Source of the DNA: Symmetrospora coprosmae
Lineage: Eukaryota; Basidiomycota; Cystobasidiomycetes; Symmetrosporaceae
Length of the DNA: 64,000 nt
Direction of reading: 5' to 3'
Assembly: GCA_008802785.1 (NCBI GenBank)
Contig: VUYT01000041.1
Location: 1-64,000, forward strand
The notes below the pieces were generated by a model that saw only the letters and a list, made by a program, of their open reading frames with translations, did no database searches and was not told the origin of the DNA. This document shows, piece after piece, positions 24,280-26,815 of this stretch. Positions within the stretch are counted from its first letter, which is position 1; every line of letters starts with the position of its first letter. The translations under genes were made by a program, and so were the position numbers.

Positions 24280-26815
24280 CTACTGCTCCTCGACGACCTC
24301 CTCCTCGTACTCTCCCTCGGGCTCCTCGTCCTCTGCCGTCGCCTCCTGGTACTGCTGGTACTCTGCGACGAGGTCCTGCATGTTGGACTCTGCCTCGGTA
24401 AACTCCATCTCGTCCATCCCTTCGCCCGTGTACCAGTGCAAGAAGGCCTTCCTCCTGAACATGGCCGAGAACTGGTCCGACACGCGTTTGAAGATCTCCT
24501 GGATTGCCGTGTTGTTGCCAATGAACGTGACGGCCATCCTGCGGCGGGGGGTGGTCCACATTGCGTCAGCCCATGCAATGTGCGGCCCACGTCCACGCGG
24601 AGAGAGGGAGGGCTGAAGGAGAGCACGACTCACTTGAGACCACGGGGCGGGATGTCGCACTGCGCGAGCTGGATGTTGTTGGGAATCCATTCGACAAAGT
24701 ATGACGCGTTCTTGCTCTGCACGCTGAGCATGTTCTCCTCAATCTCCTTCATCGAGCACTTGCCTCGGAAGTACGCGGCGACGGTCAGGTACTTGCCGTG
24801 GCGCGGGTCGGCAGCCGCCATCATGTTCTTGCTGTCAAACATCTGCTGCGTGAGCTCCGGGACCGTCACGCTGCGGTACTGCGACGACGCCCGCGCCGTG
24901 AGCGGGGCAAAGCCGACGAGGAAGAAGTGCAGGCGCGGGAAGGGGACCATGTTGACGGCGAGCTTGCGCAGGTCAGAGTTGAGCTGGCCTGGGAACTGCC
25001 GATGGAGGAGCAACGGGCGGTTAGCGCCTGTCTAGCCCAAGTGTCAGCGCACATGCACTCACTCGAAGGCAGGTCGTGATGCCAGACATGACGAGCGAGA
25101 CGAGGTGGTTGAGGTCGCCGTAAGCAGGGGCAGACAGCTTGAGCGTCTTGAAGCAGATGTCGTAGAGGGCCTCGTTGTCAATGCAGAACGTCTCGTCCGA
25201 GTTTTCGACAAGCTGGTGCACCGAGAGCGTCGCATTGTATGGCTCGACGACCTGCGACGAAGCGGGTGATTCAGTACTTGCAAGCGCACCCGTGACAAGC
25301 CAGGCCAGGCATTGATTGGCACACGCACAGTGTCGGAGACTTTCGGCGAGGGAATGACCGAAAACGTTGCCATCATCCTGTCTGGGAACTCCTCCCTGAT
25401 CTTTGAGATGAGGAGTGTGCCCATTCCGGCGCCCGTTCCACCGCCAAGCGAGTGCGTGATCTGAAAGCCCTGGAGCTGGTCGCACCCCTCTGCCTCCTTT
25501 CGGACAACGTCGAGGACGCTGTCGACGAGCTCGGCGCCCTCGGTATAGTGACCTTTGGCCCAGTTGTTGCCGGCACCGTTCTGGCCGTGGACAAAGTTGT
25601 CGGGACGGAACAGCGTTCCGTACGGGTCCTGGCGGATCGACTCCATCGTTCCCGGCTCGAGGTCGACGAGGACGGCGCGCGGGACATATCTAGCAGATTC
25701 AGACGACCTAGACCGACTCAGCTATCGCAATGCCGTGCAGTGTCGCAGCGGCAGACACGAGGTGGGATCACTGACTTGCTGCCGGAGATCTCGTTAAAGT
25801 ACACGTTGATCTTGTCGAGCTGGTCATCGTTCGAGCCCTTGTACGCGCCGGCTGCAGGTGTGAATAGTGTCAGCGGGTGTCTATCAGTCGGAGTGGGTAG
25901 GGTGGTGCAGGGCGCACTCGTGTCGATGCCGTGCTCGTCGCAGATGACCTCCCAGAACTTGGAGCCAATCTGCGGGATGGAGGAGGGTCAGTTCGGTCTC
26001 TGTAAAGTGTGGTTCAGTACCTAGATAGACGCACTTGATTGCCACATTGGCTGCATGTCGGTTAGGGCGAAGGTTGCGATAATGGGGTTCAATAGTGTCA
26101 GCGCAGTAGAGGACGGACGCGCCCGCGGTGCAGGGCTGCCTGCAAGGGCTGCCTGCCCGCGAGCAAGAGGACGAGACGCGCAAGAACGCACCCTGAACGG
26201 CGAATGCGCACACGAAGGGAAACGAAGGGACAGTGTCAGCCACCATTCTGTAGCAGAGTCACACGCCTCCCTCGCGGTGAAGCCGCAACAGGCCCCATCG
26301 AGGCGGGGGGGTTGTCGGTCGGCTCCACCACGCGGTTGGGCGTACGCGGGCCGCTCACCCGTCTGACTGCAAGGCGGCAAGGGGGTGCGACAGGCACAGG
26401 GAGGGCGTGGATAGACGTGTCAGTGAAGGTGGTTCTACTGTAAGTGTCCTTCCCATGCCTCCTCCCATGTCGCTGCACTCTGCCCTGCTGGACCCGCCGT
26501 GCCTGGTCCTGGAACTGGGAGGAGGACCACAGCGGCGCGCATTGACCGTCCCCCAGAACCGACGACGACGACGAAGACGAGGGGAACAGCAGAGCAAGAC
26601 AGGGCAGGGTGCAGTGCAGTGCAGTGCAGTGCATACGTACAGGTGGACGATCTGCAGAGGGATGGCAACGTGTTCAGTCAGCCTGCTGCGGTTCTTTCCG
26701 CGCGGCACAGGATCCCCATCCTGGTCTGGGACGCGCCCTCCCCTCCGATGGGATGGGATGGGGTGGGCCTGCCTGCCCGGTTCCTGGCTGCACCCATAGA
26801 ACTCACCTCGCGCAT
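24280..26815 (-). CDS. TUB2: Beta-tubulin, with a chain of microexons
   Basis: GTP-binding microtubule subunit. Eleven exons: 26815-26807, 26651-26641, 26366-26359, 26192 alone, 26050-26035, 25969-25918, 25851-25776, 25689-25329, 25251-25063, 24995-24634 and 24538-24280. They sum to 1344 nt, 447 residues, the normal length. The start is [17 protein letters not shown], built from exons of 9, 11, 8, 1 and 16 nt. Visible motifs are [15 protein letters not shown] (GTP binding), [17 protein letters not shown] and the acidic tail ending EEEVVEEQ. Residues linked to benzimidazole resistance are of the sensitive type (His6, Phe167, Glu198, Phe200). Identity is certain; the 1-nt exon is inferred because phase and the invariant Gly codon require it. 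Confidence 0.96.
26610..26634. repeat. (TGCAG)n tract in beta-tubulin intron 2
   Basis: Five near-perfect GCAGT pentamers lie just downstream of the donor of the 11-nt second exon (minus-strand sense (ACTGC)n). Confidence 0.85.

Follow-up and report, generated by a model that had tools for sequence, protein, structure and literature searches.

The gene for the canonical beta-tubulin on the minus strand of the Symmetrospora coprosmae window (the whole stretch of 64,000 nt that was analysed) very probably contains a real, constitutive exon of a single nucleotide, the G at position 26192, whose flanking introns would be removed in two sequential splicing events. Exons of one nucleotide represent the physical limit of exon size, and this one is predicted as a further member of that group, in a gene for which a literature search by title or abstract opening found no report of such an exon; the literature on basidiomycete beta-tubulin microexons, searched in the same way, held nothing on this gene. 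Beta-tubulin is an essential and presumably well expressed housekeeping gene, and it is widely used as a marker. If the exon is real, its presence in an essential housekeeping gene would show that the spliceosome can handle such exons routinely, sequential splicing could be studied at this locus in a fungus, and there would be reason to warn that automatic annotation likely misreads the beta-tubulin gene; if, in addition, the relay were old and conserved and its efficiency set tubulin output, a gene essential to the cytoskeleton would be controlled at the level of splicing.

The complete gene was rebuilt by exact search as 11 coding exons (9, 11, 8, 1, 16, 52, 76, 361, 189, 362, and 259 nt) between 26815 and 24280, which join to 1344 nt, or 447 codons and a stop (Table 1). 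This agrees with the preliminary description, whose coordinates and motifs are correct and in which the total with 26192 included had been put at 447 codons. All ten introns begin with GT and end with AG; intron 1 (155 nt) and intron 2 (274 nt) are long, and introns 5 to 10 are of 65–95 nt. The predicted protein is recognized by phmmer against the PDB as a full-length beta-tubulin (best E 5e-260), with residues 1–443 of 447 covered. Joining of the exons confirms that the G at 26192 supplies the middle base of the Gly10 codon (GGC) in the motif GQCGNQ, and its surroundings are as first described: the acceptor CCGTTCAG/G, the donor G/GTGCGT, and a CTGAC at −47. In context the two junctions read ACGG/GTGAGC...TTCAG/G/GTGCGT, with both donors intact. 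An Rfam search of the whole 64,000-nt window gave no match at the gathering threshold.

Table 1. Coding exons of the beta-tubulin gene and the two introns that flank the predicted single-nucleotide exon (a slash marks an exon–intron junction).
Feature	Position	Strand	Remarks
Coding exon 1 (9 nt; encodes MRE, with the start codon)	26807..26815	-	Donor GAG/GTGAGT
Coding exon 2 (11 nt)	26641..26651	-	Exact search and chain enumeration
Coding exon 3 (8 nt, TCAGACGG)	26359..26366	-	Ends in phase 1 of Gly10 codon
Intron 3 (166 nt), GTGAGC..TTCAG	26193..26358	-	CTGAC at −47, AG-free from there to acceptor
Predicted exon of 1 nt (G; second base of the Gly10 codon GGC)	26192..26192	-	Only AG.GT of interval; only canonical solution
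Intron 4 (141 nt), GTGCGT..TGCAG	26051..26191	-	CTGAC at −51, CTAAC at −15
Coding exon 5 (16 nt, CCAATGTGGCAATCAA)	26035..26050	-	Exact search and chain enumeration
Coding exon 6 (52 nt)	25918..25969	-	Exact search
Coding exon 7 (76 nt)	25776..25851	-	Exact search
Coding exon 8 (361 nt)	25329..25689	-	Exact search
Coding exon 9 (189 nt)	25063..25251	-	Exact search
Coding exon 10 (362 nt)	24634..24995	-	Exact search
Coding exon 11 (259 nt, stop included)	24280..24538	-	Exact search

The need for the single G was examined by enumerating all chains of exons that start at the ATG and spell the conserved 21-residue N-terminus, with GT-AG or GC-AG introns of 30–700 nt, at most six introns, and a practically unlimited site score (−20 bits). 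Exactly one canonical chain yields this N-terminus, and 26192 is in it as a 1-nt exon; with four introns or fewer there is none. A looser consensus, in which other residues were accepted at variable sites, still returned one chain when any sites were allowed with up to five introns, and likewise a single chain when training-level sites were required with up to six. The contention that the invariant N-terminus needs 26192 as an exon of its own thus holds, there being no other canonical chain among those enumerated. Enumeration of this kind does over-call tiny exons once site quality is ignored. When sites had to reach the training minimum, one chain each, without exons of 1–2 nt, was returned for the alpha-, gamma-, and divergent beta-like tubulin genes; with the cut-offs removed, such exons appeared in 21 of the 22 solutions for alpha and in 15 of the 16 for gamma, those listed being located where the query ends (3′). 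Unlike the alpha and gamma genes, the beta gene has a single solution even in the unfiltered search. When non-canonical ends are admitted with up to four introns, four solutions arise, two of which (GT..CA and TG..AG) depart from the model at the 26192 junction only, and a single non-canonical intron shifted by one base would then do without a microexon. This reading is highly improbable: GT..CA and TG..AG ends are essentially not known from U2 introns, the remaining introns of the gene all lack them, and they would give no account of why 26192 has so strong a site.

The preliminary description had held that the 8-nt and 16-nt exons do not join in frame without 26192, and indeed skipping it shifts the reading frame, which then closes after 162 aa; retention of intron 3 leads to a stop after 96 aa and retention of intron 4 to a stop after 40 aa. 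The interval between exons 3 and 5 (26358–26051) could accommodate 18 stop-free, in-frame GT-AG insert exons, among which the 1-nt exon has the top score (15.4). The 17 others leave room for a larger microexon that would add residues to the N-terminal loop, the kind of choice an automatic annotation might make, yet this reading is highly improbable: the runner-up scores 9.4 and gives TECQCGNQ instead of TGQCGNQ, with the loss of Gly10, and among the 12 insert exons listed the 1-nt exon alone leaves GQCGNQ intact, the other 11 breaking a motif that runs without a gap through the two alignments listed with PDB beta-tubulins. The length of this segment is fixed by homologs that are intron-free there, namely a beta-tubulin on another contig (L009), a divergent paralog on contig C30, and the two PDB alignments.

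Splice-site matrices were built from 28 introns: genes for chaperonins, proteasome subunits, and tubulins contributed 20, and the beta-tubulin gene itself eight, with its introns 3 and 4 left out of the training. The input was 58 of 66 family matches (those dropped being the C30 and two C35 tubulin matches and five chaperonin or proteasome matches), from which 38 adjacent exon pairs were obtained; the 20 with a unique solution were used, eight ambiguous and 10 unsolved pairs were dropped, and two of the 20 introns, of 104 nt (C11) and 292 nt (C55), look doubtful yet were kept. Judged in this way, 26192 has donor, acceptor, and branch-like signals that resemble those of other introns. Among the 19 GT in 26358–26051 the donor at 26191 ranks first, and its score of 11.07 also exceeds those of all 28 leave-one-out training donors. 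The acceptor before 26192 is moderate (4.32, above eight and below 20 of the 28 training acceptors), and three of the 11 AG in the interval outscore it, one being the acceptor of intron 4 at 26051 (6.64) and the others, at 26140 (8.77) and 26248 (7.65), being stronger AG that are unused in the model; the site at 26192 is the only AG.GT within 26358–26051. Of the 28 training introns, 21 carry a CTRAY motif somewhere between −65 and −12, and the CTGAC of intron 3 (−47) and that of intron 4 (−51) lie toward the distant end of the positions seen in training (−19 to −57); like the moderate acceptor and the two stronger unused AG, these long distances tell against the model. In intron 3 the tract from CTGAC to the acceptor is free of AG and 75% pyrimidine.

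A lone AGGGT is not rare: when the interval was dinucleotide-shuffled 5000 times, 11.4% of the resulting sequences contained one. Shuffles that contain an AGGGT with a donor of at least 8 and an acceptor of at least 4 bits amount to 0.12% of 5000, and none of the 5000 has these scores together with a branch-like site. Both strands of the whole window hold 96 AGGGT, two of which reach the same donor and acceptor scores; both have a branch-like site, and an AG-free tract is found at the 26192 site alone. Across the genome (20,053,935 bases, both strands), the pattern CTGAC-N20..50-YAGGGTGNGT has at least 10 matches, or about 8e-5 per 308 nt from the matches listed, a figure that is somewhat flattering given that the pattern was composed after the site was known. 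The reversed control has at least nine, so that AGGGT sites of this grade are not enriched and do not point to a class of such exons; the tract between CTGAC and acceptor is AG-free in one of the 10 matches listed, which is the 26192 site.

The main rival to a 1-nt exon is a one-base assembly error: exon 3 would lack its last base or exon 5 its first, and 26358–26051 would be one ordinary intron with a length of about 308 nt. Where exon 3 meets its donor there are three G in a row, a plausible spot for one-base errors; the absence of one base from either junction would make the 1-nt exon unnecessary, and the sequence comes from one assembly only. The frequency of AGGGT in shuffled intervals lends this reading some further support, as does the length of introns 1 and 2. 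In a check for frame errors elsewhere in the assembly, spacing was relaxed for the 10 unsolved training pairs; for some of them the best out-of-frame pair outscored the best in-frame one, and two remained without a solution, a mixed outcome that speaks neither for nor against such errors. An error would, however, turn the combination of a strong donor, an acceptor, and an AG-free branch tract into a coincidence, of a kind seen in none of the 5000 shuffles and at the low genomic rate of the matches listed; the undivided 308-nt intron would be longer than every intron of the gene, and the 1344-nt coding sequence contains no other frame break. On balance an assembly error is unlikely.

Very small exons at the 5′ end recur in a second tubulin gene of this genome, identified as alpha-tubulin by its N-terminus and by tblastn similarity (L014:826-1188): its first coding exons are of 10, 18, and 27 nt. 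One ordinary intron interrupts its Gly10 codon in the same phase as intron 3 of the beta gene (CACATCG/GTGAGT..CAG/GCCAG). This single intron, with the next exon starting GCCAG, is a point in favor of an assembly error in the beta gene; if the 1-nt exon is accepted, the beta gene looks either like the alpha arrangement to which a further intron has been added, displaced by one base, or like the outcome of another origin, in which a base is lost at a junction and a cryptic AGGGT is recruited, as has been proposed for Fusarium CYP621A (PMC12940212). The Gly10 codon has no intron in gamma-tubulin (L013), in the divergent beta-like gene (L001), or in the beta-tubulin of L009, which is contiguous over 19 residues there. 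The divergent second beta-like tubulin (contig C30, minus strand) is 38–56% identical over pieces of at least 50 residues; it begins MREVLTLQVGQAG, and that stretch, up to the end of GQAG, has no introns.

A search of viral contigs with beta-tubulin yielded no relative, and a search of genome contigs led to an animal-like contig and to tubulin loci of bacteria, three in number, but to no related fungus. The former (L009:1-3449) carries an intron-containing beta-tubulin gene, presumably animal-like, in a contig filed as a Gammaproteobacteria MAG, and is probably eukaryotic contamination. The latter (L010:4785-7633, L012:2418-5074, and L011) encode tubulins on Polyangia/Myxococcales contigs of 413 kb, 1.5 Mb, and 7 kb, which are 65–68% identical to the fungal beta-tubulin across about 120 aa. 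At L010 and L012 a second tubulin-like ORF directly follows the first, and the first ORF of L010 has its best PDB match to chains named tubulin beta (E 2e-139).

As for the route by which the 1-nt exon might be spliced, introns 3 and 4 would each be ordinary U2-type introns recognized by intron definition. On steric grounds, an acceptor complex and the U1 snRNP would hardly fit on TTCAG/G/GTGCGT simultaneously, and the two introns are therefore probably removed in sequence. Were intron 3 to leave first, ligation would produce ...ACGG-G/GTGCGT, an intact donor for the second step, and the whole would be a recursive-splicing relay with a residue of one nucleotide; the donor context after loss of intron 3, GGG/GTGCGT, still scores 9.96. 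Either order would give the same mRNA, in which Gly10 (GGC) of GQCGNQ would be restored. Recursive splicing had been raised in the preliminary description as a different explanation; it is retained here as a likely route and not as an alternative, since the mRNA product is identical. The anatomy, the frame, the uniqueness of the solution, and the strength of the signals are read directly from the sequence, whereas use of 26192 in RNA, by all transcripts, and with this order of steps is inferred. It is doubtful, though conceivable, that the relay is ancient and has been conserved by this yeast lineage in its main beta-tubulin gene, and that splicing efficiency at the one base sets tubulin output, as it would because skipping or retention truncates the protein.

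In its anatomy, 26192 is a single base between the AG and the GT of two canonical introns whose omission breaks the frame of a conserved protein, as is characteristic of a 1-nt exon. In a zero-nucleotide recursive splice site the acceptor AG is directly followed by the donor GT (AG/GT), an identity rejected for 26192, where one G separates the two. One-base exons of mitochondria (placozoan cox1) belong to a different system. Fungal [D1,2] stwintrons are similar in that two U2 introns are necessarily removed in sequence, and differ in that the internal intron splits the donor between bases 1 and 2 with no exon base between (PMC12403724); 26192, with both donors intact and a whole G between AG and GT, was rejected as one of these. 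In the paper on the Cryptococcus neoformans genome, the main text uses "microexon" once, for a read-mapping setting, and "tubulin" never (PMC3990503).

Published work reports 1-nt exons of nuclear genes in Arabidopsis APC11 (PMC4674806), in plant APC11 and VPS55 (PMC8831610), and in Fusarium CYP621A (PMC12940212). Arabidopsis APC11 likewise has a frame-required lone base between AG and GT inside an apparent single intron, and its putative branch point is an A that lies 44 nt upstream, comparable to the CTGAC at −47 in beta-tubulin; its base is an A, however, in a plant, and was proven by cDNA and mutated reporters, in which the mRNA base reportedly followed the substituted one (PMC4674806). 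The plant APC11 and VPS55 microexons are absent from annotation, as in beta-tubulin, but are conserved across land plants and verified by RNA-seq and RT-PCR (PMC8831610). The closest likeness is to CYP621A, described by its authors as the first fungal case: both occur in a fungus, at an AGGGT, with a frame-required G as the middle base of a Gly codon, which lies in the conserved motif PKG of CYP621A and in GQCGNQ of beta-tubulin (PMC12940212). CYP621A is a P450 of an ascomycete genus, documented by 20 orthologs and RNA reads (PMC12940212), whereas the beta-tubulin exon is predicted from the sequence of one genome.
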